IMG/VR virus record: IMGVR_UViG_3300021364_003460
Span: 62,001 to 126,000 of that record
Length of the DNA stretch: 64,000 nucleotides
From: a virus
Strand: one strand, 5' to 3'
Position numbers and translations under genes: made by a program. Shown here one piece after another: positions 6,113 through 64,000 of this stretch. The notes beneath the pieces were generated by a model, which ran no database searches, had not been told where the DNA came from, and was given only the letters and a program-made list of their open reading frames with translations. How positions within the stretch are numbered: the first letter of the stretch is position 1; each line of letters opens with the position of its first letter.

Positions 6113-7582
6113 TTGAATATGCTTCAACTTACAGTTGGAAAGGAAGTAGATTACTTTTACATAACTAATGCTTCTGATTTAATAGAGGCAGTTAACAATA
6201 TTGAAAAAGCATTAGAATCTACAGATAAAATACTTGCAGTAGATACAGAAACCTATCCTTTATATAACATTTATGGAGATAGAGCTGATTTTAGAGACCC
6301 ACACACAACAGCTACTAGATTAATACAGGTCAATGTATCTTATAATAATACTCCTTATATCTTTGACTTCTTAAAAATAGGTAGAGAAGGTTTTCAACCT
6401 TTAGTTGATTTATTAATGAGGAAAGATATAAGAAAAGTAGGTCACAATTTTAAGTATGATATTAAGCAACTTAAAGCAAGTTTAAATGTGTGGCTACCTA
6501 ACTCCTGGTGTACTTTGGTGATGGCAGCTAGAGTTAATGTATGTACTGGATTCAGAGCAGGTCAAATGAGAGGTAACTCTTTAAAAGCATTAGCTAGAGA
6601 TTACTTTGGTATTGATTTATCTAAAACAGAACAAAAATCAGACTGGTCTAATCCTAATCTTGCTTCTGAACAGTTAGAATATGCTGCTTTAGATGTTAGT
6701 AAAGGAAAAAGCCATACTCAACTAAAGCATTCTGTACTGCTAGATTTATATTATCTATTTCACAATCTACTTTATACTCCTGCACCTAAAGGTTTTGGAG
6801 GTCACTGTAAACTTAAAGACTTTAAAGAACCTATTGAAGTAGACCAAGCAGCTAACTCTATACTTGCTAAGATTGAGTATAATGGAATGCCAGTATCTAA
6901 GAAGATGCTAGACCTAATTTACTCTACAGCTAGTAAAGAAGTAGAAGAATTAAAGTTGTATCTTTGTAAGAGCTTTGGTTTACCTATTCAACAAGCACTT
7001 GATTATACAGATGAAGGGGCTAAAGTAATCACTATTCTTAGTGAGGAAACTCAAAAGACTCTCAATAATCCTAAGAAACTAGTACAATTAGTTAATAAGA
7101 CTTTGAAGAAACAAGGGATTGAGTTAACTAATGTATTGTCAGATTCACTAGAGGAAGCTTTGAAGAAACTAAAAGCTAAAGAGTCTGAAGAAGAGCCTGA
7201 TGAAGAAGAGGAGTTTTATTGGGAAGATGAGGAGGAAAGCGTAGAGTGGAATATAGATTTAATAGACAAATTAATTAAGTATAAAGAGTTAAGTAAATTA
7301 GTTAGTATTGACTATAGAAAGTTGATTAACCCTGTTACTGGTAGAGTTCATAGTAGTTATCAATGTATTGGTGCTAGTACAGGTAGAATGAGTAGTGGAG
7401 GTAAAGGTAGCTTTAATGTGCAACAGATTTCGAGTAAAACAGTAGTTATAGAAATAGAAGAAACTGATCATCCTTATATCAGTTCTTCTCAAATAAACTT
7501 TACGCAGCTTTCTGACTTAGAAGATAATCTTGAGATTGATAAAACTGTTGAGCTTTGTCATACTTCCTCTGCATATAAATAG
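6113..7582 (+). CDS. polA: Family A DNA polymerase, N-terminal part (3'-5' exonuclease and start of polymerase domain)
   Basis: Encodes the proofreading half and the beginning of the palm/thumb of a PolA-type replicative DNA polymerase. Exo I is at D44/E46 (AVDTETYP), Exo II at N112/D116 (VGHNFKYDIKQL) and Exo III at Y190/D194 (YAALDV). Exo III is followed by an unusual 12-residue insert before VLLDLYYLF. An acidic linker (about residues 356-377) precedes the polymerase start (TGRVHSSY...STGRMSSGG...NVQQIS, residues 409-440). Family similarity stops near residue 441. The last 48 residues look unrelated and overlap an antisense homing endonuclease gene. The rest of the polymerase resumes at 8448. 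The two parts probably act as a split enzyme, unless RNA processing joins them. Confidence 0.9.
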   Translation: MNMLQLTVGKEVDYFYITNASDLIEAVNNIEKALESTDKILAVDTETYPLYNIYGDRADFRDPHTTATRLIQVNVSYNNTPYIFDFLKIGREGFQPLVDLLMRKDIRKVGHNFKYDIKQLKASLNVWLPNSWCTLVMAARVNVCTGFRAGQMRGNSLKALARDYFGIDLSKTEQKSDWSNPNLASEQLEYAALDVSKGKSHTQLKHSVLLDLYYLFHNLLYTPAPKGFGGHCKLKDFKEPIEVDQAANSILAKIEYNGMPVSKKMLDLIYSTASKEVEELKLYLCKSFGLPIQQALDYTDEGAKVITILSEETQKTLNNPKKLVQLVNKTLKKQGIELTNVLSDSLEEALKKLKAKESEEEPDEEEEFYWEDEEESVEWNIDLIDKLIKYKELSKLVSIDYRKLINPVTGRVHSSYQCIGASTGRMSSGGKGSFNVQQISSKTVVIEIEETDHPYISSSQINFTQLSDLEDNLEIDKTVELCHTSSAYK

Positions 7583-8381
7583 TAGCACCTACATACAAAT
7601 AATCTAAAAGTTTATTTAAATTAAACCTACCACCAAATCTTATATCAGAAGTATACTCATTACCATTTTTATAAGCAACAACTGAAGAAGTTATATTATG
7701 TTTTTCTAATAAGTAATCTTTAAGTTGATTACAAAATAAACTAGAACTAGTGATGCTTACTCCTGTTTTGTTAAGATCAGTTAAATTATTTATTGTTTTA
7801 GGAATAATTATACATCCGTCTCCATCTAAATAACCTCTTACAAAGTGTCTCATTAAATCAGCAGGAACTCCAATTGGCATTTCTAAGATTTTAGATTTTG
7901 CAGGAATACACCCTTTTGCAATAAGAGATTCTACAAAAGGCTTGTTGTATATACTTAATGTAGTAAAAGGGTTGCCGTTCTTTTCTCCATAACCTGCTGT
8001 TTTATAATAGGTTCTTATATCGCAATTAGATTCTAAACAATCTCTTAAATTATACAACAAGTATTCATCAGATTGAGTTAAGGTTATAGCAAACTTATGA
8101 GTATACTTATGTATGCTAGTATTTCCATCTGCAAAAATTAAACCTAAAAAGTAAGCTTTCTCTTCAGAATCTATTACTTCAAAATAAGTGTAGTTTAAAG
8201 TATGCCAACTACTAGCATCCTGATAACCCTTAATCTTAATACCTCTTCTTTTTAATACACCTAATATAGCTTGAGGAGAAACATTATATTCCCTTGACAA
8301 TTCTACAGACCTTTTTCCAGCTAAATAACTATTTACAATATCAATCTTTTGTTGATCATTCAATCTATTAGGTATTCCCAT
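7500..8381 (-). CDS. LAGLIDADG homing endonuclease with N-terminal HTH, antisense to the polymerase
   Basis: A 293-residue protein with a helix-turn-helix at residues 23-50 (RSVELSREYNVSPQAIL) and two LAGLIDADG helices at 77-86 (FLGLIFADG) and 180-189 (VRGYLDGDG), the dimer-interface and catalytic Asp motifs of a single-chain enzyme. It would cut an uninterrupted polymerase gene and drive its own copying by recombination. It lies between the two polymerase parts but on the opposite strand. Its 3' end overlaps the tail of the N-terminal part by 83 bases. It shares its plan (HTH, SEEKAY..G...DG) with the endonuclease at 21253. An AGTACA/TGTACT hairpin lies directly before its ATG. Confidence 0.88.
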   Translation of the reverse strand: MGIPNRLNDQQKIDIVNSYLAGKRSVELSREYNVSPQAILGVLKRRGIKIKGYQDASSWHTLNYTYFEVIDSEEKAYFLGLIFADGNTSIHKYTHKFAITLTQSDEYLLYNLRDCLESNCDIRTYYKTAGYGEKNGNPFTTLSIYNKPFVESLIAKGCIPAKSKILEMPIGVPADLMRHFVRGYLDGDGCIIIPKTINNLTDLNKTGVSITSSSLFCNQLKDYLLEKHNITSSVVAYKNGNEYTSDIRFGGRFNLNKLLDYLYVGATIYMQRKYDKAQQFYQSQDYLLSQKAA

Positions 8382-8412
8382 AGTACATTTAAATTAAACA
8401 TTAAAGTGTACT
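8382..8412 (-). promoter_or_regulatory. Hairpin directly upstream of homing endonuclease start
   Basis: On the minus strand AGTACA and TGTACT pair (6 bp). The second arm ends immediately before the ATG at 8381-8379, so pairing could hinder initiation. The endonuclease at 21253 has a comparable, stronger hairpin. Confidence 0.4.
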
Positions 8413-8447
8413 TTACATAGAACAAAGTAATATTAAATAGGCAATTA

Positions 8448-9461
8448 ATGAAAAAGAAAACAAGAGTAAGTTTAAGACATGCTTTTGTAGCCCCTAAAGG
8501 TATGCTTATTGCTAGTAGCGATTTCTCTGCTCAGGAATTTCGCAATGCAGGGGCATTATCTAAAGATGTAAACATAGCTAAAATTTACAAACTAGAAAAA
8601 GAATATATAGATAAAATAAGACCTAAACCCATTAACCCTTTAACTAATAAATCTTATGATGACCCTGCCTGTGACCCTCATATTCAAGCAGCAGTACCTT
8701 TAGACAATGAAGTTAAAAGAATAGTATTAGAAGAACCTTGGAGAGCTATAAAAGAAGACCTACATGTAGGACCTTGGAGGCAGAAAGGTAAGGTAATGAA
8801 TTACAGACTTATTTACTTATGTTCTGCTATGTCTTTAGCTCCAGAATTAGGAGTAAGTAAAGAAGAAGCTCAAGCTTTTATAGATAAATATTTCTCATAT
8901 CCTGATGGATTCTATGGTTTAGGTGAATATTTAAAATCAACAGCTCTTATAGGTAGTGAAGTTAGATGGGTTAGAACTGCTACAGGAGAACTTATTTTTG
9001 TGAATGAATCAAACAGCAAGGGTTTATCTGACTCAGGTGCAGCAAGTCGTAAAAGTGTAAATAGTCCAAATCAAGGTTTAGGTTCTACTCAAAAAAAGAT
9101 AGCTTTAGCTTTAGCTGATAAAAAGTTTACTAAATTAAATGATAAATATAGAAATGTAATTAGAGGAAGAGAGGGTGTACTAGGAGGAGAGATCCATGAT
9201 GAGTCGTTAGCTTTTATACCAGGAGAATGTTACTTCCACTTAGTACCTGATGAAAAGTTAAATGAAAAATATAATACTGATATCTATGTTAAACCTCAGG
9301 TAGAGTTTGATGAAAATATAGGGGAACATGCTTTAGCTTTAGAATATGGAGCAGCCTTAAAAAGTTCTATGGAAGAAGCAATGCAAGAAACCTTTGATAT
9401 TATAGGAACTGATATTCCTCCAGGAAGTTCAGTAGAAGTAGCTCCTTGGTGGATTCACTAG
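8448..9461 (+). CDS. polA: Family A DNA polymerase, C-terminal part (palm/fingers)
   Basis: Resumes the polymerase exactly where the part at 6113 leaves off (TRVSLRHAFVAPKG). Motif A is SSDFSAQEFRNAGALS near residue 25. Motif B is at about 107-120 (KGKVMNYRLIYLC), unusual in having Tyr-Arg and Leu-Cys where most family members have Phe-Gly and Tyr-Gly. Motif C is GGEIHDESLAF near residue 245. The catalytic Asp of motifs A and C are both present. The ATG has no evident Shine-Dalgarno. Together the two parts make about 780 residues of typical PolA content, so the split appears compatible with function. Confidence 0.88.
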   Translation: MKKKTRVSLRHAFVAPKGMLIASSDFSAQEFRNAGALSKDVNIAKIYKLEKEYIDKIRPKPINPLTNKSYDDPACDPHIQAAVPLDNEVKRIVLEEPWRAIKEDLHVGPWRQKGKVMNYRLIYLCSAMSLAPELGVSKEEAQAFIDKYFSYPDGFYGLGEYLKSTALIGSEVRWVRTATGELIFVNESNSKGLSDSGAASRKSVNSPNQGLGSTQKKIALALADKKFTKLNDKYRNVIRGREGVLGGEIHDESLAFIPGECYFHLVPDEKLNEKYNTDIYVKPQVEFDENIGEHALALEYGAALKSSMEEAMQETFDIIGTDIPPGSSVEVAPWWIH

Positions 9462-28900: not shown

Positions 28901-30178
28901 ATGTTATCCCCTCAAGAAAGAAAAGAAAGAATACTAAGTGAAATTAAGATTAGCCAAATAGTTAATGTAAAAGATTATGGGAGTTCTACTTGTCCTTGTT
29001 GTGGTAAGTCTAATAAATTTAGTATTCATAGTAATAGAGGTAAATGCTGGTCTAGCTACTGTGAGTTAAACAAATCATTAGATGTAATTAGTCTTTATCA
29101 ATGGAAGCATAACTTAGCTGATAGATGGGAAGCTACTAAAGCTATAGAACAAGAGTTTAATTTACCTGTAGGTAGTAATAAACCTAATGAGAGAAGTCAA
29201 TTATTAGAGCAATGTTTAATTATCTACCAAAAGTATTTATGGTCTAATCAGCAAGCATTAGATTACTTAAGGAATAGAGGCTTTTTAGAAGAAACTATTA
29301 GAGAACTAGGTTTAGGTTATGCACCTGATTTTAGCTGCCTTACTAAACAGGGTATTAAAACTACTGACTTACAAAGAGAAGGATTATATAAAGAAGGTAA
29401 AGAATACTACTCTAAAAGAATCATCTTTCCTATTAGAAATAAATTTGGGCATTTAGTTCACTTTCAAGGCAGATATATATTGCCTATAGCTAAAGATGAT
29501 AAAGGTGAAGATACTATTCCTAAATATAAAGATAGTAGACCTGCTAACAATAAAACTACTAAAGACTTTCTCTATTTAGAAGAACATATAGAAAAATATC
29601 TTAAGTCTAGTAATATGTTATATGTAGCTGAAGGTTGTCCTGATACTATCTCTTTATGGCAGAAAGGATTACCTGTGGTTGGTTCACTAGGTTTAGAGAA
29701 ATTAACTAGTCACATTAATAAACTAAAGAAGTTTGATTACATAGTTTTTATGTTTGACAATGATACTTACCCTTCTCACCATCCTAAATATTCTTTAGAA
29801 TATAAAAGCTGGGTTAGAGTTATACCTCAACTAATAGACTTACAAATAGCTTTACCTACTACTAACTTTTATACTTGCTTAGTTCCTCATCATACTATCC
29901 ATAAACAAAATAAGTATGCTGTTGAGACTAAGGATATTAATGAGTGGTTAACAATAGGACAGCTAACTAAAGATGAAGTAGAAAAGTACATTAATTCTAA
30001 GAAAAAAGAGTTTGTTAGTTCTCTAGTTGAACAAGAAGGTAGTAACATTAGCTATCACTTTAACTTACTTAAACTTATTCAGGTTACTGGTAAACACTAT
30101 CTTAAAGAAGAGCTATTTAGATTCCTACCTCCAATGAAGTCTCCTATAGATTATGCTTGTGAAGTGTTGGCTGCTTAA
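28901..30178 (+). CDS. dnaG: DnaG-like primase
   Basis: Synthesises RNA primers. The N-terminal zinc module has C31, C34, C49 and C54 (STCPCCGKSNKF...KCWSSYC), the CHC2-type domain that reads template DNA. After an intermediate region (LRNRGFLEETIRELGLGYAP, typical DnaG core) comes the TOPRIM domain with E244 (YVAEGCPDTI) and D286/D288 (FMFDNDTY). The C-terminal part is not the DnaB-binding domain of bacterial DnaG. 425 residues. Confidence 0.9.
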   Translation: MLSPQERKERILSEIKISQIVNVKDYGSSTCPCCGKSNKFSIHSNRGKCWSSYCELNKSLDVISLYQWKHNLADRWEATKAIEQEFNLPVGSNKPNERSQLLEQCLIIYQKYLWSNQQALDYLRNRGFLEETIRELGLGYAPDFSCLTKQGIKTTDLQREGLYKEGKEYYSKRIIFPIRNKFGHLVHFQGRYILPIAKDDKGEDTIPKYKDSRPANNKTTKDFLYLEEHIEKYLKSSNMLYVAEGCPDTISLWQKGLPVVGSLGLEKLTSHINKLKKFDYIVFMFDNDTYPSHHPKYSLEYKSWVRVIPQLIDLQIALPTTNFYTCLVPHHTIHKQNKYAVETKDINEWLTIGQLTKDEVEKYINSKKKEFVSSLVEQEGSNISYHFNLLKLIQVTGKHYLKEELFRFLPPMKSPIDYACEVLAA

Positions 30179-55504: not shown

Positions 55505-55559
55505 ATTATGTTGTATAGAATATTCAATTTAGTGTAATTAAATAAGGAATGCAAATGTT

Positions 55560-55793
55560 ATGCGTAAATATAAAGTGACTGTAGAAGCTGAGTTAACTCT
55601 AAATGACTTTGTAGATCACATTGATGTAAATAAGTTTAGTGAGTCTTCTATTATTATTCATTTAATAAATGAAGAAAATAACCCAGAGGAATGTGAATAT
55701 AAACTATCTCTAGAGCTTTGGGACAATAGTTATGGTGAATTTATTCAAGAAGCTATTATTAAAGCTATAAATGTATCAGAAATTACAAACTAG
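55560..55793 (+). CDS. Hypothetical acidic protein, 77 aa
   Basis: Strand start (KVTVEAELTLNDFV), then acidic. Divergent from the structural operon. No family recognised. Confidence 0.6.
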   Translation: MRKYKVTVEAELTLNDFVDHIDVNKFSESSIIIHLINEENNPEECEYKLSLELWDNSYGEFIQEAIIKAINVSEITN

Positions 55794-55868
55794 TTAATTT
55801 CTAAAGTTACCCTGAAACAGAATAGATAGATTGAAGTTTATAAAATAAATATACTGGAGGATAGATAA

Positions 55869-56018
55869 ATGAAAACAAAGAAAGTATTAGCTGAATTAGT
55901 AGCCCAAAGTATTGCTGACTATGAAAAGTACATGTCTACACTTACTCCAGAACAACAAGCTATTAGAAGAAATGCTTTCTGGAGTAAAGTTAATAATGAT
56001 AACAAAGTGGCAGCCTAG
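55869..56018 (+). CDS. Hypothetical helical protein, 49 aa
   Basis: Strong GGAGG (55856-55860) before the ATG. Helical, basic start (KTKKVLAELVAQSIADYEK) and FWSKVNNDNK end. Its stop overlaps by four bases the stop of the convergent recombinase gene. Family unknown. Confidence 0.6.
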   Translation: MKTKKVLAELVAQSIADYEKYMSTLTPEQQAIRRNAFWSKVNNDNKVAA

Positions 56019-57604
56019 TATTTAAACTCTATACTAACTACCTGATTACCTTTTATGTATATTCTTCTTATACAAGACTTTAATATTTGCCCCTTCAAAG
56101 AGGTATCTAAAGTCTCCCAGTACAAAGGGTCAGAGAAAGCAGATATTATTCTCTCTTTAGATACTATATAGTTTACAGACTGAGTAGCTGTTGACTTATC
56201 TAACTCTGCTATTCTCCTTTTAGTCTGCATAATAGAGTCTTGTAAAGTTATGTCATAAGGCAGACTTTCTAAAGCAGTTAATTGGTTCTTAAGTTTCTGC
56301 AACTCTTTACTATCTACTGTAGTTACAACAGGAGTCTCTCCTATCTTAGATAACCTCTCTGCTTCCTGTATAAGTAAAAGTATTACTTGGTGTTCTAATG
56401 AGTCAGAACTAATCATAGTAGAGTTAGTACAAGTTCTAGTTCTGTAAAAGCTACACTGATAGTAATGTCTAAGATAGTTTGTACTTTTAACTAACTTTTT
56501 AGATTGTCTACTGTAAGCTGCATGGCAGTAATAACACTTTAGTAAACCAGCAAAGGGATTAAGGTATCTTTGTTCAGTAGTCCATCTATTATGTCTATTA
56601 GCAGAGATAAATGATTTTACTTGTTCATATTCCTGATAAGTAATAATAGCTTCTCCACTAGCTCCAAAAGAGTTAACAGGATAGTTAGCAGTATTGCCAT
56701 GAGTACCCCAAGATATAGTCCACTGTTCAAAGGGTTTTTTATGACCTTTAGATTTAGTATTAATATTATAAGGAGTACCACCAGCATACACAGGATTAAT
56801 GAGGGTATTCCTTAAACCAGATACAGTCCAACTTAAGCTTTTAGAAGAATAGCCAAATAAAAGAGTTCTATTAGTATCTTTGATAGATTGATAACTAAGT
56901 TCATCCTCTTGTTGAATAACATTAGGTTTCTTTTCTTTACCTTTAGTAGTAGCTTTAACTTGAATACCAAAAGTCTCATGTAACTTAGCTACTGTTTTAT
57001 TAATAGTACCTACTTCAAAGAAACAGTCAAATACATATCTAGCTAATGTTGCTTTAGTAAATACTTGCTTATTATTTAATAAGCATATAATTTCTGTATG
57101 ATCTAAAGTGTAACTATCATTAATAACCTGATAACCAAAAGGAGCGTTCCAATGAGGTTTATTTTGTGACCTTCTAAAATTAACATCATCTTTAACTCTT
57201 TTAGATAACATTTCTACTTCATATTGAGCGGCAGCTAATCTAACATTTATAGTTAGTTTGTCTGCTATGTTATCTATGTTAAAGTTTTCATCTAAAGCAA
57301 CAGAAGTTATATCTTTCTTTTTGAGAGCATCCATTAGCTGATAAAAAACTAGGTAAGAGGAAGTTAATCTATCTATTCTTATAAATATAAACTTAGATAT
57401 CTCTCCTTTTTGAGAGTAGTTTATATCTTCTATAAGTTGCAGTAACCCTCTTCTAGTATCACTTGTCCTAGATTCTATATCATAGTAGATTTTAGTAGCT
57501 TCTGCTGCCCTAACTCTCTGCATCTGTTTGATAAGAGAATTCCTGTCTTCTTGCTGTTCTTGAGTAGAAACTCTACAGTAAGCAATCACTTGAGGTTGAA
57601 ACAT
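56015..57604 (-). CDS. Large serine recombinase
   Basis: 529 residues. The resolvase catalytic domain at the N-terminus has IAYCRVSTQEQQED with nucleophile Ser13, and RIDRLTSS. The DNA-binding recombinase region follows (DDVNFRRSQNKPHWNAPFGY), then a zinc ribbon (CYYCHAAYS, YQCSFYRTRTCT) and C-terminal coiled coil. It would integrate, excise or invert DNA. It resembles phage integrases and the XisF type of cyanobacterial element recombinases. A dyad just upstream at 57628 is a likely att site. Confidence 0.9.
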   Translation of the reverse strand: MFQPQVIAYCRVSTQEQQEDRNSLIKQMQRVRAAEATKIYYDIESRTSDTRRGLLQLIEDINYSQKGEISKFIFIRIDRLTSSYLVFYQLMDALKKKDITSVALDENFNIDNIADKLTINVRLAAAQYEVEMLSKRVKDDVNFRRSQNKPHWNAPFGYQVINDSYTLDHTEIICLLNNKQVFTKATLARYVFDCFFEVGTINKTVAKLHETFGIQVKATTKGKEKKPNVIQQEDELSYQSIKDTNRTLLFGYSSKSLSWTVSGLRNTLINPVYAGGTPYNINTKSKGHKKPFEQWTISWGTHGNTANYPVNSFGASGEAIITYQEYEQVKSFISANRHNRWTTEQRYLNPFAGLLKCYYCHAAYSRQSKKLVKSTNYLRHYYQCSFYRTRTCTNSTMISSDSLEHQVILLLIQEAERLSKIGETPVVTTVDSKELQKLKNQLTALESLPYDITLQDSIMQTKRRIAELDKSTATQSVNYIVSKERIISAFSDPLYWETLDTSLKGQILKSCIRRIYIKGNQVVSIEFKY

Positions 57605-57627
57605 GATAGCTGTCTCCTAAAGATATA

Positions 57628-57671
57628 CCTGATAGTATACACTTTGGAGAACGTAAGTTTACACTATCAGG
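57628..57671. other. Putative attP or recombinase-control dyad
   Basis: 44 bp next to the serine recombinase start. Arms CCTGATAGT and ACTATCAGG are exact and the pairing continues imperfectly to the centre (16 of 22 positions). Length, imperfect symmetry and position 24 bp upstream of the recombinase fit attP of large serine integrases; a hairpin or operator is the alternative. Confidence 0.5.
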
Positions 57672-57695
57672 CAAGTGCTAGAAGACTTACTCTGA

Positions 57696-57842
57696 TTAGG
57701 TTTCAAAAAATTCATCTATTTCTTGCTTGGCTTTTATTACTCTAACTTGTTTAGTCAAAGTATTTAAGTCTGTTTTAATCTGCTGTAGTATTTTCAAGAT
57801 TTGTTCTTGAGATATTGCATCTTTATTGTCTTGTTCAATCAT
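57696..57842 (-). CDS. Small coiled-coil protein, 48 aa
   Basis: ATG 57842-57840, TAA 57698-57696. A heptad-like helix (ISQEQILKILQQIKTDLNTL) dominates, suggesting an oligomerising peptide. It ends 25 bp from the putative att dyad and reads into the recombinase, and may be a directionality factor partner, though that is a guess. There is no clear ribosome binding site. Confidence 0.5.
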   Translation of the reverse strand: MIEQDNKDAISQEQILKILQQIKTDLNTLTKQVRVIKAKQEIDEFFET

Positions 57843-57869
57843 TTTATTTAACAAAAGGAATTTAATAAT

Positions 57870-58817
57870 ATGTCTTTAAAATACACTTCTCAATTATCTA
57901 ACATTGGTACTGTTTATGAAGGTGAGACTCCTAATGAATTAGCTCAAAAAGCAGGTTTAGATTGGAATGTAATTGTAACTCCAGCTAACTATACTGTAAA
58001 TGGTACTAATTATCAAAGTAAGTCTACTAATATTATTGTAAGAGAAGATAAACCTGAAGTACAGTTAGGAGACTGTGGTACTAAATGGCAGCCACTTCAA
58101 AATGTAAATATTCTAGAAAGTGTAATTGAATTCTGTAATAATGAACCTACCTTAAAACTAGATAGGGTAGGTTGCTTTAAGAATGGTAAAACTATCTGGG
58201 CTTCTATCAAAACAGATAAAGTTATTGAACTAAAAGGTGGAGATTTAATTAGTGGTAGCTTGTTATTAGTTAACTCTCATGACTATGCTAATGGTATGTT
58301 AGTTAAACTATTACTAGATAGAGAAATCTGCTTTAATCAATTAGCTGTAGGAGTGCAAACTAAAACTAAAGTGTATGCCCACTCTAAGTTTCTTACTCAA
58401 GACAAAGTAATGTCAGTGTTAGCTGGTTTCCATAATCAGTTTAACCAATTTAAAAAAGATGCTGAAATACTTAGCAATACTGAAATAGACTTAGATTTAT
58501 TCTACAGACTAGTTATCAAAGAGTTTGGTAATATAGAAAAAATGAATCATCTGAAGGCTCACTTATCTGACTTAGATGAGCAACCTAAAGCAGTTAGACA
58601 GATTGTTCAGCTATACTCAGGAGCAGGTATGGGTAGTGATATGATAAGTGCATATAACACAATGTGGGGTTGCTTAAACGCAACAACTGAGTTTGTTAAC
58701 CATAAGTCTAAGAAAACTGGAGGAGTAGAAGGTCACATTAATAGCCTATGGTTAGAAAGTAAAGCTAGAAAGCAACAGAATATTTACAAACAGTTAGTTA
58801 GTTTAGCAAGAGTATAA
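57870..58817 (+). CDS. DUF932 (TIGR03299-like) protein
   Basis: 315 residues of the phage/plasmid DUF932 family. Conserved pieces seen: ...DWNVIVTPANYTVNG, IIVREDKPEVQLGDCGTKWQ, VIELKGGDLISGSLLLVNSH, and WGCLNATTEFVNH near the end. These proteins are common in phages and plasmids, often linked with DNA replication or defence, but the activity is not established. Strong ribosome binding site AAAGGAAT. Confidence 0.85.
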   Translation: MSLKYTSQLSNIGTVYEGETPNELAQKAGLDWNVIVTPANYTVNGTNYQSKSTNIIVREDKPEVQLGDCGTKWQPLQNVNILESVIEFCNNEPTLKLDRVGCFKNGKTIWASIKTDKVIELKGGDLISGSLLLVNSHDYANGMLVKLLLDREICFNQLAVGVQTKTKVYAHSKFLTQDKVMSVLAGFHNQFNQFKKDAEILSNTEIDLDLFYRLVIKEFGNIEKMNHLKAHLSDLDEQPKAVRQIVQLYSGAGMGSDMISAYNTMWGCLNATTEFVNHKSKKTGGVEGHINSLWLESKARKQQNIYKQLVSLARV

Positions 58818-58892
58818 ATGTAGATAATTTACGTATATAAAGGCTACATAGTAGGAGATGTTGTAATCTGCCCTACTGGTCAAGTAGGCTAA
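58818..58892 (+). pseudogene. 25-codon frame with in-frame TAG at codon 2
   Basis: ATG-TAG, then IIYVYKGYIVGDVVICPTGQ in the same frame up to TAA at 58890-58892. The peptide has the pattern of a small beta protein. CAG to TAG would explain the stop. It starts directly after the DUF932 stop. Confidence 0.35.
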
Positions 58893-59596
58893 AAAAATAC
58901 AGTATCTAGATTACCTTCTCTTAATAAGGCTTTTAGATTACTGTAGCATTCTTCTAACTGTGTTAATTTGTCTTGGTTAGAGTACCAATCTAAAGTAGGT
59001 TCTTCTAAATACTGTATTTCTATAATTCCAAAGATACCTTTCTTGCTAGTTAGCAGTCTACTATATTTTGTGTGAATACCTCTTTTCGTTAGATAGTTAA
59101 CACAAACTAGAGATAAAGAGGATTGACCTCTGTAATACTTATTAAATTTAACATCAGTAAGATGTTTTAATTCTTTGTTAATAAAACAGTCTGTTATAGG
59201 TATTTTTCTAATAAGAGTTTTTAAAGAAGGAACGTTAATTTGAGTAGCTTCATAAACTACAGAAAACTCTTTAAAAGGAATGGCATCTGTATTACAAGTA
59301 TTGTGAACTAAGGCAACAGCTACCCTACTGGCTTGAGTAATATCTAACGTCTGTTTAACTACTTCTTGTATTTTTTCATGATTGTCTATCTCTTCAAATT
59401 TTACATAGTTACTGTTAACTTTCTTTGGCTGTTTAAAAGCTACAGTAAGTAGTATCAAACTAGATATTATTAGAGATAGTAATCCAAACACTTCTTCTGT
59501 GTGATTTTTATAAAAGTCTACTAAATTATCTCTAGTAGATTTAACTTCAATTATATTCATAAAGTTAGTAAATAATATACATAGATTTACTAACAC
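58889..59596 (-). CDS. Membrane-anchored GAF-like protein
   Basis: 235 residues. A transmembrane helix at about 38-54 (VFGLLSLIISSLILLTVAF) follows a short N-terminal segment, then a linker and a soluble domain with GAF-like order (ASRVAVALVHNTCN, SVVYEATQ, GIFGIIEIQY). GAF domains bind small ligands and act in sensing. No output domain is attached. The domain call is by pattern only. Confidence 0.5.
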   Translation of the reverse strand: MLVNLCILFTNFMNIIEVKSTRDNLVDFYKNHTEEVFGLLSLIISSLILLTVAFKQPKKVNSNYVKFEEIDNHEKIQEVVKQTLDITQASRVAVALVHNTCNTDAIPFKEFSVVYEATQINVPSLKTLIRKIPITDCFINKELKHLTDVKFNKYYRGQSSLSLVCVNYLTKRGIHTKYSRLLTSKKGIFGIIEIQYLEEPTLDWYSNQDKLTQLEECYSNLKALLREGNLDTVFF

Positions 59597-59646
59597 TTAT
59601 TTATGTGCAAATTATATTTAATTTTATTTAAAAAACTTAATAGTAA

Positions 59647-60366
59647 ATGAATAACAAACCTAATGGCTTTATCTTATATGAAGGAGCCTCTACTTTTGAT
59701 GGCAGCCCCATTGTAGTTATAGTAACTGGGTATAAAACTCCTAGTGCTAACCCTAAAACTGGAGATATGTTACAAACGTGGATTATCAAATCAGATGACT
59801 TTCCTAGTAATGCTATTAAAAAAGGTAGTGATAGTTCAATTTGTGGTAGCTGTTCTCTTAGAGGTAAAATATGTTATGTCTACATGGCTCCAGTCAACAA
59901 TATATGGAGAAACTATAAAGAAGGGTGTTACCCTAAAGTAAATGATAAGATACTACAGAGGATTAAGAGAAGAAGGCGTTTAGTACGCTTAGGAAGCTAT
60001 GGCGACCCCTGTGCAGTACCTTTAGAAGTATAGCAGCCTCTTATTAAAGCTGGTGCTGGTTACACTGGTTATACTCATGCTTGGCAGTATACTGACCAAA
60101 GGTGGAAACAATACTTGATGGCTTCTGTTGAATCTACTACACTAATGGAGAAAGCGCATGACTTAGGTTGGAGAACCTTTAGAATAATAGAGTCTACTGA
60201 TGAGTTAACTGATAAAGAAACGATGTGTAAGAATTGGTTAGATGAGGATATTAAGTGTGAGGACTGCAAGCTATGTAATGGTAAAAGTAATAAACCAAGC
60301 ATAGCTAATGTAGTACATGGTGTTAAATGGAAAGTAAATAACTATAAAGAGTTAGTATTAAATTAA
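59647..60366 (+). pseudogene. Phage protein (DUF7227-like) with in-frame TAG at codon 129
   Basis: The frame of 128 codons ends VPLEV-TAG at 60031-60033, then stays open for 111 codons to TAA at 60366, with clear protein content (GYTHAWQYTDQRWKQYLMAS, GWRTFRIIES). The upstream half has Cys pairs (CGSCSLRGKICY) and LVRLGSYGDPCAVP. The two halves together match, from memory, a phage family I know as DUF7227, where Trp often precedes QPL. TGG to TAG would explain the stop. It could be readthrough, a broken gene or an error. Confidence 0.7.
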
Positions 60367-60430
60367 CCTACCAATTATAAGTAAACTTAAATTATAAATA
60401 CTTGCAATTACATTTACCATTGAGGAGATA

Positions 60431-60811
60431 ATGGCAAAGTTGCAGGTATATAATTCTCCTACAGACTTTTATGAATATGATTTAGAAGATAAATCTATAG
60501 TAACAGTAGGTAGGTCTTCTAACACTAATATAATTATACAAAGTAATTATGTTAGTAGAAGTCACTGTTCTTTTATCTTATTAGAGAAAGAAGAAGTGGC
60601 AGATAAGTTTTATTGGGTAATTAAAGATAATAGTAGCAGTAACGGTACTTGGGTTAACAATAACAAAGTAATAGTTTGCACTTTAAACAATGCAGATACT
60701 ATTACTTTTATGGGTAACTCCACATTTCCTAAAATAGTCTATATAGTTGAAGCTGAATTAGACACAGAAAGTAAAGAAACAGGAGCTTATGAGTATGCTG
60801 AGGCGTGGTAA
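60431..60811 (+). CDS. FHA-domain protein, 126 aa
   Basis: A single forkhead-associated domain, which binds phosphothreonine peptides. Signature residues in order: GRS at 27-29 (VTVGRSSNTNIII), SRSH at 42-45 (YVSRSHCSF) and NG at 71-72 (DNSSSNGTWVNNNKV). All the phosphopeptide-contacting residues are present. The rest is a short acidic tail. FHA is unusual in phages and common in cyanobacteria. A GAGGAGAT ribosome binding site precedes it; it overlaps the next, membrane coiled-coil gene by 23 bases. Confidence 0.88.
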   Translation: MAKLQVYNSPTDFYEYDLEDKSIVTVGRSSNTNIIIQSNYVSRSHCSFILLEKEEVADKFYWVIKDNSSSNGTWVNNNKVIVCTLNNADTITFMGNSTFPKIVYIVEAELDTESKETGAYEYAEAW

Positions 60812-61361
60812 CTTAATTCTATTGTGGGGATTAGTAGCCAGCATCTCAGGTTACTTTGTCCTCAACTTTCTTATTAAAAGTGTCAGTGATAGGATAGCTT
60901 TAATATCTTTTATCTTTAGTTTAGGGGCTACTATCTATGGGCTAATAGAACAAAGGAAAACAGATAACTTTAAAACTCTAAAAGAAACTAAAGATTCTAT
61001 CTTATTAGAAGTAGATGACTTAAAACAGTATACTTTAAATCAGGTTAAAGAAATAAAACATGAATCTGAAAAGAATGATACTAGACATGACAACGCTATT
61101 ATTCTGTTAACTCAACAAATAAACGCTCTTAAGATAAGGTTTGAACATCATATAGAAGAAGCTGGTCACTTATATACTACTAAGGAGTTACTTAAGTTAA
61201 AAGAACAAATAGAGTATATTAAAGCTATAGTTAATGTTCAGACTAAGTACGCTGATGTACATTTAAAATTACTTAAATTAGAGAAAATGCTTAGGGTGAC
61301 TAAAGATTATAGAAAGGTAGATTCAGAAAAGTTAAGTAAAGAAATTCACGATACTCCTTAA
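60789..61361 (+). CDS. Membrane protein with two spans and coiled coil
   Basis: 190 residues. Membrane spans at about 9-29 (LILLWGLVASISGYFVLNFL) and 35-53 (IALISFIFSLGATIYGLI), then a long charged helix (about 60-180) with heptads (LKQYTLNQVKEIKHESEK). It overlaps the FHA gene by 23 bases, so the two are probably co-translated and may form a membrane-bound phosphopeptide-sensing pair (inference). Confidence 0.65.
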   Translation: MSMLRRGNLILLWGLVASISGYFVLNFLIKSVSDRIALISFIFSLGATIYGLIEQRKTDNFKTLKETKDSILLEVDDLKQYTLNQVKEIKHESEKNDTRHDNAIILLTQQINALKIRFEHHIEEAGHLYTTKELLKLKEQIEYIKAIVNVQTKYADVHLKLLKLEKMLRVTKDYRKVDSEKLSKEIHDTP

Positions 61362-61362
61362 T

Positions 61363-61584
61363 ATGGTTAAAACTGCTGAACAAAGACACCACAATCAAAG
61401 ACTATTAAATAAGTATAGTAAGCTAGTTAGTAAAAGAAGAAAAGAATGGTTGACTTTAGGTAGAGTGTTCAAGCAAGACCCTTTTGATTGTGGTAATCCT
61501 AAGTGTGTAGTTTGTGGTAAAAATACTAAAGGTAAGAATAAAACTAAAGAGAAGTATAAGTTAGATAGTTACTATTATGAGTAG
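61363..61584 (+). CDS. Small basic protein with Cys motif
   Basis: 73 residues, highly basic, with DCGNPKCVVCG (C-x4-C-x2-C), a possible metal or nucleic-acid site. Overlaps the next gene by eight bases. Unknown family. Confidence 0.6.
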   Translation: MVKTAEQRHHNQRLLNKYSKLVSKRRKEWLTLGRVFKQDPFDCGNPKCVVCGKNTKGKNKTKEKYKLDSYYYE

Positions 61585-61843
61585 AACTTACAGACATAGA
61601 GAGCTAAATAAGTTTATAACTAATAGTTACAATACTAGAAGATACCATTACTTAAGAAGACCTAAAACTAAAAATGAGATTACTCAATTACAAAAAGCTG
61701 TAGATGAGATAACAGAAGAGGGATTTAGTGTAAACAATAGAACCCTTGCTAGAAGTAATCCTGGTAGTAGTTTAATAGTAAATGCCTGGGATGATATAGT
61801 TATAGCTGCTTTGAGTGAAGTTGATTTTGTAAAAGAAAATTAA
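61577..61843 (+). CDS. Small basic protein, 88 aa
   Basis: Basic Arg/Tyr-rich N-terminus (SRTYRHRELNKFITN...RRYHYLRRPKTKN), suggesting nucleic-acid binding, and an acidic end. Unknown family. Confidence 0.6.
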   Translation: MSRTYRHRELNKFITNSYNTRRYHYLRRPKTKNEITQLQKAVDEITEEGFSVNNRTLARSNPGSSLIVNAWDDIVIAALSEVDFVKEN

Positions 61844-61844
61844 T

Positions 61845-62114
61845 ATGTGGCAACCCGTAGAAACAGCTCCTAAAGATGGTACTAAAATTTTAGCTTGCTA
61901 TGTTACAGAGAATTCAGAGTACAACCCTATTACAGTAAAATGGAGATGCTATCATCCTAATGCTAAAGGAAAAGAATGTTGGAGAGATTCAATGAGTGAC
62001 AAAGTAATAGTAACTCATTGGATGCCTTTACCTAAACCCCCCTATACTTTTTTCTCCATTTTTATAAAACTCCTAAAAGCCTTATTACATAAAGGTTTCA
62101 GGGGTTTTATATAG
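61845..62114 (+). CDS. DUF551-like protein
   Basis: 89 residues with the DUF551 order: W-x-P...AP-K-DG-TKIL (WQPVETAPKDGTKILACY) at the front and VTHWMPLPKPP near residue 64. DUF551 is common in phages; function unknown. The last 20 residues are hydrophobic and basic (FFSIFIKLLKALLHKGFRGF), unusual for the family and possibly membrane-binding. Confidence 0.85.
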   Translation: MWQPVETAPKDGTKILACYVTENSEYNPITVKWRCYHPNAKGKECWRDSMSDKVIVTHWMPLPKPPYTFFSIFIKLLKALLHKGFRGFI

Positions 62115-62119
62115 CTATT

Positions 62120-62139
62120 GGTGCGGTAATAATAGCACC
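62120..62139. terminator. Hairpin between convergent genes
   Basis: GGTGC/GCACC around GGTAATAATA lies between the convergent stops at 62114 and 62159. A weak bidirectional terminator is plausible. Confidence 0.4.
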
Positions 62140-62158
62140 CTAACTAACTTCCTTATAA

Positions 62159-63712
62159 TTATCTATATTCCTCTTTCTCTAGTAGAAATCCTCTCTCTTC
62201 TATCTCTATCCAGTTAACTAGTCTTTGATAACTCTTACTTTCTGAATCTTTACTCTCTATAGTTAATCCATCATAGCTGTAGGTTACTATATTCTCTTTT
62301 ATTACTTCTGCTATTAATCTTTGGATTATAGATTGTTCTCTACCTTGGCAATAGAAAGCTAATAATCTGGAAGCTACTTTAACTTTATCAAATCTACCTT
62401 CTGAACCTAACTCAACTTTGTAGTTATTTAATTCAGTTTTAAGATTAAACTTTAAACCTAATGAGTTAGTGTGAATTAGCTTAGTAGCTTTAGGCTTCTC
62501 TATTAAATCTGCTGTGTACTGATTTAACCATCCATCTCTTAAATTAAGTAAAGGTTTAAGAATACCTGTAAAACATTCCTCTACTTTAGTTTTATTAACA
62601 GCATACTCAATATTGTATTTAACTTTAGCTCTTCTACTTGCAAGGTAAGGTAGCTCTGATAACTTGGCTCCAAAACAAAATCCATAGACTATTATTTTCT
62701 TGATGTCTTTTGGTAAATCTTTAGACCCAATGTGTCCCCAAATACTATCAGTTCTTATAATGTGAGCTATCTGTTCCTTGACAACCTCAGCTCCTAATAT
62801 GTCACAGAGAACTAATAACTGGGCACACTTCAAGTCTACCTCTAAGCAGTAATTATTAGGGTCAGTAGCCTTTATAAAATATTTTCTGAATTTAGTAACC
62901 AAAGCCATTGGTCCACCTCTAGTATGCAATCTACCTGGCTTCTGAAGAAAGTAAGAGTCATGGTATTGAGGTTGATTAGTCAAAGCCATCTCATTCATAG
63001 CAAACATTAGAGATAACCTTTGGTACTTATTTAAGTTTAGATTTCTAATAAATTCCTTACCTTTAAGAGAATTAAAGAGGTCTAAATCAAATCTAAACTT
63101 AGAGTTTCTTAACTTCTGCCAAGCATCTCTAGTACATGAAGGTAAATCAGATAGTTTAATATCAGGACCGCCCCATTTAGCAGGCTTAACTCCTACATTC
63201 TTACTACTCCTCAAGAAGTCAGGAGATACTTCTTTGTACTCTAAAATATCAGACACATAATTATCTACTTTTTCCTGGAGTTCATCTATCACTTTAAACC
63301 TCCTACAGTATTCTTTGTTGTAGCCTGTATATGCAACTATACTAGATAAAGGTTCAATAGTATTTTTAGTAACAGTTCCCATATATTTTTGTAAGTTGCG
63401 GTTAGAATATTCTGCTGCTTTAAAAGGAGTCATTAAAGTAAATAGAAGTTGTACAGGTATCTGAAAATAGTCTGAAGGCTCTAGTTGTTGCTCTTTATTC
63501 TTCTTTAGCTTTAGTAATTGAACTAAGTAGGTTATTTGTTCATCTGATAACTTTATACCTATCATTTCATGGGCTACTTCAGCAACTATATAAGATGTAA
63601 ATTTAGAAGCAATATTGCTTTGATAATCTGCTATCTTTTTGATATAATTATTCATATAAGAAATATTCTGTTTTTTATTTAGTTGTAAGAAGAGAGTTGT
63701 TGTCAGAGGCAT
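62159..63712 (-). CDS. Divergent family A polymerase (RNA-polymerase-like motif C)
   Basis: 517 residues with no proofreading exonuclease. Three palm/finger motifs stand in order: motif A with D293 (CLEVDLKCAQLLVLCD), motif B at 337-346 (IKKIIVYGFCFG) and motif C with D481 (YSYDGLTIES). The GRL segment (PGRLHTRGG, about 259) and a QG...IIQ helix (QGREQSIIQRLIAE) are also family A traits. The residue after Asp in motif C is Gly, as in single-subunit RNA polymerases (HDG), not Glu (HDE), and the steric-gate Glu of motif A is Gln. It could be an RNA polymerase, primase or special DNA polymerase. Start: ATG 63712; an alternative ATG is 57 bases in. It is a second polymerase besides that at 6113-9461. 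Confidence 0.75.
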   Translation of the reverse strand: MPLTTTLFLQLNKKQNISYMNNYIKKIADYQSNIASKFTSYIVAEVAHEMIGIKLSDEQITYLVQLLKLKKNKEQQLEPSDYFQIPVQLLFTLMTPFKAAEYSNRNLQKYMGTVTKNTIEPLSSIVAYTGYNKEYCRRFKVIDELQEKVDNYVSDILEYKEVSPDFLRSSKNVGVKPAKWGGPDIKLSDLPSCTRDAWQKLRNSKFRFDLDLFNSLKGKEFIRNLNLNKYQRLSLMFAMNEMALTNQPQYHDSYFLQKPGRLHTRGGPMALVTKFRKYFIKATDPNNYCLEVDLKCAQLLVLCDILGAEVVKEQIAHIIRTDSIWGHIGSKDLPKDIKKIIVYGFCFGAKLSELPYLASRRAKVKYNIEYAVNKTKVEECFTGILKPLLNLRDGWLNQYTADLIEKPKATKLIHTNSLGLKFNLKTELNNYKVELGSEGRFDKVKVASRLLAFYCQGREQSIIQRLIAEVIKENIVTYSYDGLTIESKDSESKSYQRLVNWIEIEERGFLLEKEEYR

Positions 63713-63729
63713 CTCTCTTTTTAGTTTTA

Positions 63730-63744
63730 TATAATAAGATTATA
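63730..63744. promoter_or_regulatory. Candidate divergent -10 boxes
   Basis: TATAAT on the plus strand (63730-63735) and TATAAT on the minus strand (63744-63739) lie between the divergent genes. The minus box is about 27 bases upstream of the polymerase-like gene's ATG. No convincing -35 boxes. Confidence 0.35.
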
Positions 63745-63781
63745 CTATAAGAGTAAGTAAACTTAGTAAAGATAGATATGT

Positions 63782-63832
63782 ATGACAACTGTATATGTAG
63801 TAACTTCTAGTGAATATAATGCTGGCTTTTAG
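63782..63832 (+). pseudogene. Possible truncated small gene, 16 codons
   Basis: MTTVYVVTSSEYN and then a stop at 63830-63832. The start has the pattern of a common small phage protein (VYVVTS.EY), but the rest is missing and the frame after the stop is short. Low confidence. Confidence 0.3.
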
Positions 63833-63853
63833 AAAAGAGTAAGTAGATAAATT

Positions 63854-63994
63854 ATGAATGTAGAAAAACTAAAACAACATTTTAAAAACAAGAAAAATGT
63901 TAGGTTTCATGAGCACTCAGATAGGTTACTAGTTTGTTATATAACAGAGAAAGATAACACTTCAGTAGCTATAGGTTTAACTTTTTATAGGTAA
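63854..63994 (+). CDS. Hypothetical protein, 46 aa
   Basis: MNVEKLKQHFKNKKNVRFHE start, VCYITEKDNTSVAIGLTFYR end, TAA at 63992-63994. Basic front, strand-like back. No family recognised. Confidence 0.45.
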   Translation: MNVEKLKQHFKNKKNVRFHEHSDRLLVCYITEKDNTSVAIGLTFYR

Positions 63995-64000
63995 AAGTAT

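Follow-up and report, generated by a model that had tools for sequence, protein, structure and literature searches.

A TV-Pol-like family A polymerase in a cyanophage of the Ma-LMM01 lineage, with relatives on Synechococcus elongatus plasmids

The window analyzed here is a stretch of 64,000 nucleotides from a virus record of 190,865 bp, and it carries a second family A-type polymerase gene in addition to a PolA. What kind of polymerase is this, and what might it do for a phage? An earlier note on the window suggested a divergent RNA polymerase of the phage's own or a primase-polymerase. The gene reported there is exact in coordinates and intact: a single uninterrupted open reading frame with an ATG start.

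62159-63712, minus strand: TV-Pol-like family A polymerase gene, 517 aa (open reading frame; homologs in a second phage and four plasmids; hhalign match to a TV-Pol set)

The window virus is assigned by sequence to the Ma-LMM01 (Fukuivirus) lineage of cyanophages, because its terminase shares 51% identity with the one in Microcystis phage Ma-LMM01 and its structural module is for the most part collinear with the module of the same phage.

Relatives of the polymerase are few. A tblastn search of plasmids with a loose E limit finds four Synechococcus elongatus plasmids (E down to 2e-28), whose homologs are about 30% identical over window residues 184-502. An alignment-based scan of viral contigs adds one further phage, L046, with 33% identity over residues 78-503 (E 1e-57). 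L046 is a 207,855-bp record with a related terminase (35%) and a PolA, and represents a second phage of the Ma-LMM01 lineage. Its terminase match (L047, L048; record G013, 116874-119933) comes in two pieces separated by about 1.4 kb, both in a single long open frame; this pattern is suggestive of an in-frame insertion, for example an intein. The window protein gives no match by tblastn in the phage collection and none in viral-contig scans (alone or as two fragments); two scans of the genome-contig collection give no match. Viral-contig scans with alignments return L046 as the single relative and nothing further on repeat, and the gene is not found in the whole records of the related phages searched. 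Since further scans of the viral and genome collections added no members, the subfamily counts as rare within the collections covered.

Used as a single sequence, the window protein gives no relevant match in Pfam, PHROGs, NCBIfam or PDB sequence scans; the F-box-like and DLH matches in these scans are sub-threshold and were dismissed. No exonuclease family is detected by Pfam, PHROGs or NCBIfam, in agreement with the earlier statement that no exonuclease is attached. An HMM of the five-member family has no match in PDB.

Motifs A, B and C, which the earlier note had recognized in the sequence, are all in register with those of DNA polymerase I (Pol I) in a profile-profile match. The motif regions are as follows.

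62909-62944, minus strand: motif 1 hairpin, QKPGRLHTRGGP; Arg261 corresponds to Pol I Arg668 (alignments and profile match)
62807-62842, minus strand: motif A, EVDLKCAQLLVL; predicted catalytic Asp293, with Gln298 at the Glu710 steric-gate position
62666-62710, minus strand: motif B (fingers O helix), KDIKKIIVYGFCFGA; K335, K339, Y343 (Phe762 position), F347 (Tyr766 position) and G348
62333-62347, minus strand: QGREQ, in the region of Pol I Gln849-Gly850; E459 is conserved in TV-Pols and absent from Pol I
62261-62281, minus strand: motif C, YSYDGLT; predicted catalytic Asp481, with Gly482 where Pol I has Glu883

Motif A reads E291-V-D293-L-K-C-A-Q298, motif B reads K335-x3-K339-x3-Y343-x3-F347-G348, and motif C reads Y478-S-Y-D481-G482-L. 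When Asp293 is aligned to Pol I Asp705, Gln298 sits on Glu710, and the exchange of the steric-gate Glu for Gln is thus confirmed. In the five-member alignment, residues G260-R261, D293, Q298, K335, K339, Y343, F347-G348, Q456-G457, E459 and S-Y-D481-G-L are invariant; those with a counterpart in Pol I correspond to R668, D705, E710, R754, K758, F762, Y766-G767, Q849-G850 and D882. The window polymerase shares with Pol I the register of the palm and fingers motifs, but it lacks the exonuclease and differs at E710 (Q), F762 (Y), Y766 (F), E883 (G) and R754 (K). E710 and F762 have been named as the residues of Pol I that discriminate against ribonucleotides (PMC7581432), and both of these positions, now Gln and Tyr, are changed in the window polymerase.

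Could the protein be a decayed polymerase that is kept for binding DNA or protein? The replacement of Glu710 and Glu883 is compatible with this, as is the failure to find the gene in the related phages searched, and a parallel proposal exists for RRM proteins free of catalytic residues in PolA-SSB loci. However, the two catalytic aspartates of the RRM palm, D293 and D481, are present and invariant, and so is the fingers lysine, among aligned homologs that are only 24-33% identical, indicating purifying selection on the active site. Decay is therefore very improbable, and a catalytically active DNA-templated polymerase is likely.

TV-Pols (transposon-virus polymerases) were described by Iyer, Abhiman and Aravind in 2008 as polymerases of mobile elements, one of them in Ma-LMM01, that share an Arg hairpin, two Asp and a fingers RxxxK but lack a nuclease; they were proposed to be primase-polymerases (PMC2579912). 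We take Ma-LMM01 gp030, which adjoins transposase genes, as the likely member meant there. The comparison set was grown from gp030 and a Calothrix plasmid (plasmid6) protein, and further includes proteins of a Synechocystis B12 plasmid, a Polaromonas plasmid, Vibrio phage GR7B and Dickeya phages JA11 and JA29; its members are assigned by similarity and motifs, not from the 2008 sequence list. TV-Pol-like genes of Dickeya JA11 and JA29, Vibrio GR7B and two metagenomic viral contigs (L057, L058, L059, L061-L064) are named "hypothetical protein" where they are annotated.

In hhalign, the match between the window family and the TV-Pol set spans 229 columns, beginning at motif 1 and continuing beyond motif C, and has Prob 97.7 and P 2.1e-12. 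The window protein alone also matches it (P 8.2e-9, residues 128-484). The best of 100 column-shuffled decoys scores 24 (P 0.059), as compared with 102 for the true match, and the reversed set gives P 0.86. The window family combined with the TV-Pols matches a Pol I set (E. coli, T7 gp5 and two cyanophages) along 222 columns; P is 1.3e-6, and all motifs are in register. Against gp030, divPolA2 or the phage's PolA as single sequences, the family gives no significant match; the relationship is resolved only with sets. In a tree, the TV-Pols including the window family stand apart from the PolAs (100/99), the five family members group together (100/100), and the window and L046 proteins are sisters (100/98). 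Long branches make finer placement unsure.

The residues point the same way. The gate residue is Q in the Calothrix, Synechocystis, GR7B, JA11 and JA29 TV-Pols, and H in those of gp030 and Polaromonas. The Arg hairpin before the palm (GR260-261) is aligned with Pol I and most TV-Pols. The fingers RxxxK appears as K335xxxK339, with Lys for Arg at the first position, which varies in other TV-Pols too; K339 is invariant in 17/17 sequences. Thus, the window subfamily resembles TV-Pols in its palm/fingers core, Arg hairpin, two catalytic Asp, DG in motif C and QGxE, in the lack of a nuclease, in Q (or H) at the steric gate and Y (or L) at the Phe762 position, and in its occurrence in both phages and plasmids, where several of the replicons also encode recombinases. 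It differs in its separate branch, in adjoining parAB on cyanobacterial plasmids, in that no D5 helicase is found, and in motif C, which is YDG in the window family but HDG in all collected TV-Pols that extend that far. Judged from these alignments, the gene product very probably has the family A fold and is a member of the TV-Pols. The claim of a second, exonuclease-less family A polymerase is thereby supported, and the gene product, with its changed gate, falls among the TV-Pols and not in a clade of ordinary DNA polymerases whose gate is intact. Orthology with gp030 is ruled out, as the two genes lie at different loci and on different TV-Pol branches.

The suggestion of an RNA polymerase had been drawn from motif C, read as DG "as in T7 RNA polymerase". 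This reading is wrong, since residues 811-813 of T7 RNAP are HDS and DG is a TV-Pol signature. A phage-encoded single-subunit RNA polymerase would nevertheless fit a non-Glu gate and a motif C without the second acidic residue, both of which T7 RNAP has (G542, HDS) within the same superfamily, and mitochondrial RNA polymerase is among the weak Foldseek matches described below. On the other hand, the gate residues of T7 RNAP are G542/M635/Y639 as compared with Q298/Y343/F347, there is no profile similarity to T7 RNAP (P 0.55-0.6, with a single T7 RNAP sequence as comparator), the window protein has 517 aa versus 883 aa, and the plasmid members adjoin parAB. The Q gate and DG are common to the TV-Pols of mobile elements; therefore, they are family traits and not signs of an RNA polymerase. 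A search with the Pfam family RNA_pol gave no match, but its controls were equally silent, hence it is not used as evidence. Taken together, an RNA polymerase of the phage's own is not supported and appears extremely improbable. As Q298/Y343 and YDG differ from Pol I and also from T7 RNAP (G542, M635, Y639, HDS), the window polymerase carries neither set.

Structure prediction gives no confident model. AlphaFold (AF2) gives a pLDDT of 37 with two sequences and a mean of 47 with six; in the latter model, residues ~295-465 reach about 76 and form the usable part. Ahead of residue 295 the confidence is too low for assigning the bihelical coiled-coil thumb expected of a TV-Pol. In a Foldseek search of PDB, the first three matches of this weak model are all DNA polymerases of family A, namely the T7 enzyme and two apicoplast entries; mitochondrial RNA polymerase holds ranks 5 and 7. 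With E values of 0.26-1.6 overall on a weak model, the fold search is at most corroborative of the family assignment. A BFVD fold search is uninformative.

62978-63712, minus strand: N-terminal region, about residues 1-245; predicted to be mostly helical, with no exonuclease

A D5-like helicase or an all-helical N-terminal domain, frequently with a recombinase close by, counts among the features of TV-Pols. The N-terminal half carries I-P (85-86) and CRRFKV (136-141), and IP and CRR[FY]K recur in other TV-Pols; compared alone with the TV-Pols by profile, it gives P 0.01-0.06, which is not significant. A winged-helix DNA-binding fold for this half is a guess.

The polymerase gene lies in an accessory block of ~10.7 kb, which ends at genome position ~128219 and sits between homologs of Ma-LMM01 gp110 and gp109.

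55505-64000: window part of the accessory block (gp110/gp109 homologs contiguous in Ma-LMM01 and in the related phage L027)
56015-57604, minus strand: large serine recombinase of the XisF family (phrog_95, E 5.8e-51; NF041201 XisF, 446 bits versus a cut-off of 375)

From this comparison the block is considered lineage-specific. Its ends share no repeat of 13 bp or more, and its GC and GC3 are close to those of the phage's other genes. We do not claim a discrete mobile element, because no flanking repeats are found and the base composition is that of the phage. XisF is the fdxN-element excision recombinase of heterocystous cyanobacteria. The link between the XisF-like recombinase and the polymerase is one of location. 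A search for the recombinase in six related phage records, run without a positive control, gives no match, nor is it found in the L046 phage, so that a linkage common to the two phages is not supported. The block also encodes a TIGR03299 "phage/plasmid-like protein" (57870-58817, plus strand; 128 bits versus a cut-off of 110.7) and an FHA domain protein (60431-60811, plus strand; E 3.8e-15), the latter followed by the gene of a 190-aa protein whose start resembles a transmembrane segment. The polymerase gene is alone on its strand, with no same-strand neighbor and no recognized replication genes adjoining it. A promoter scan found fewer sites than in shuffled sequences and is not used.

The phage has a replication set of its own.

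6113-7582, plus strand: PolA part 1, 3'-5' exonuclease and start of the polymerase (phrog_31382, phrog_17)
7500-8381, opposite strand: endonuclease gene in the PolA gap (phrog_4645)
8448-9461, plus strand: PolA part 2, palm, with DFSAQE and HDE intact (phrog_35406, phrog_17)
28901-30178, plus strand: DnaG-type primase (DNAG_N and Toprim_2 above cut-off; homolog of Ma-LMM01 gp134)

The conventional PolA that the earlier note placed at 6113-9461 does keep the E gate and HDE, but it is two open reading frames and not a single gene. A comparable split is found in Ma-LMM01 (gp180/gp178); intein-like tails are not obvious by eye. The phage also encodes helicases and a homolog of the Ma-LMM01 clamp loader. 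Predictions that TV-Pols are primases rest partly on linkage to a D5-type helicase, and no such helicase (D5_N) is found in the phage record.

The plasmids offer a different context. On UTEX 3055 unnamed2 and PCC 11802 p1, the polymerase homolog directly follows parA-parB on the same strand, and no other Rep is recognized on either plasmid from the annotation or from Pfam searches of chosen remaining hypothetical proteins. Because of this position and the lack of another recognized Rep on the two plasmids, the homolog is probably the replication (Rep) protein of these S. elongatus plasmids. Plasmid IITB7 carries CyRepA1 besides the TV-Pol; therefore, the TV-Pol is not necessarily the Rep of that plasmid. 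Cyanobacterial plasmids with several Reps are known (PMC10899382). Recombinases are present on the S. elongatus plasmids with homologs, and the plasmids L042, L043 and L044 carry defence systems, namely DISARM genes and type I CRISPR-Cas (Myxan and I-E).

Two characterized or described systems bear on the function. CcPol-MP and the PolA-SSB primases likewise have a family A polymerase of mobile elements; CcPol is counted by some among the TV-Pols and is the working model for primase-polymerase function (PMC7581432, PMC10061031). It is the only assayed protein so counted, and it primes DNA with its partner MP (PMC7581432). However, CcPol resembles Pol I closely and retains E710 and F762, as compared with Q298/Y343 in the window polymerase, and its partners are an OB-fold protein encoded next to it and a helicase, neither of which is seen at the window gene. 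DivPolA2 of Rheinheimera/Vibrio phages is also a second, exonuclease-less, divergent PolA beside a regular polymerase, with an N-terminal domain that lacks an assignment (PMC11348598), but its prototype keeps the E gate (DFKAFE) and FDE in motif C. The profile match to the divPolA2 (AUR84708) set covers 45 columns, with P 0.024 for the window family and P 0.004 for the family combined with TV-Pols.

Primase-polymerase function of the window protein is plausible by analogy, because it was proposed for TV-Pols (PMC2579912) and shown for CcPol-MP (PMC7581432). De novo priming by polymerases of the window family has an even chance. What speaks against it is that CcPol alone only extends primers and needs the OB-fold partner MP to prime (PMC7581432, PMC10061031), whereas the window gene has no same-strand neighbor. 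A TV-Pol that extends primers only, in repair, gap filling or bypass, would fit the finding that no SSB-like partner or D5 helicase is recognized beside or with the gene; it would also suit a phage that already has PolA and a DnaG-type primase, and a repair role was suggested by the authors for the analogous divPolA2 (PMC11348598). Yet no other recognizable Rep or primase was found on the plasmids of UTEX 3055 and PCC 11802, although some initiator is needed, and a role in repair alone leaves the position next to parAB unexplained. Extension without priming thus seems rather unlikely.

The reading that we favor, with moderate confidence, is a divergent TV-Pol that serves small replicons as a primase-polymerase or Rep-type enzyme and is present in the phage as an accessory copy. 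It would be a minimal, proofreading-free family A polymerase of palm and fingers with its own N-terminal domain, working for small mobile replicons. Asp293 and Asp481 would carry standard two-metal catalysis, and Lys339 and Arg261 would deal with the template and the nucleotide that enters. The residues that select the sugar in Pol I, Glu710/Phe762/Tyr766, would be replaced by Gln298/Tyr343/Phe347. As its role, DNA-templated primer synthesis with short extension, starting replication of the replicon, is the most likely, and in the S. elongatus plasmids the enzyme would probably act as the Rep protein beside ParAB. We infer that the phage copy was exchanged between plasmid and phage; as an accessory, it would add to the split PolA and the DnaG-type primase, and perhaps starts synthesis where that set cannot. 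A bolder version, which we consider unlikely, is that the subfamily forms a novel class of replication initiators for cyanobacterial plasmids, which are primase-polymerases in their own right and are shared with large cyanophages; their Gln/Tyr gate would let chains start with ribonucleotides or with mixed sugars, whereas CcPol uses dNTPs only.

By its sequence, the window gene adds to a known kind of polymerase, the TV-Pols, with its nearest kin on Synechococcus plasmids. The 2008 prediction for TV-Pols was that they are primase-polymerases branching near the root shared by DNA Pol I and T7 RNA polymerase (PMC2579912), and besides CcPol none had been biochemically characterized as of the 2020 CcPol paper (PMC7581432). 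Among TV-Pols, CcPol is a Pol I-like outlier that retains the Glu gate. The priming ability and sugar choice of the core could therefore be tested with a compact member whose gate is altered and which has no obvious partner. The plasmid members would allow a simple genetic test of replication and might serve as the source of a compatible cyanobacterial replicon. The case documents the sharing of an enzyme between plasmids and phages.
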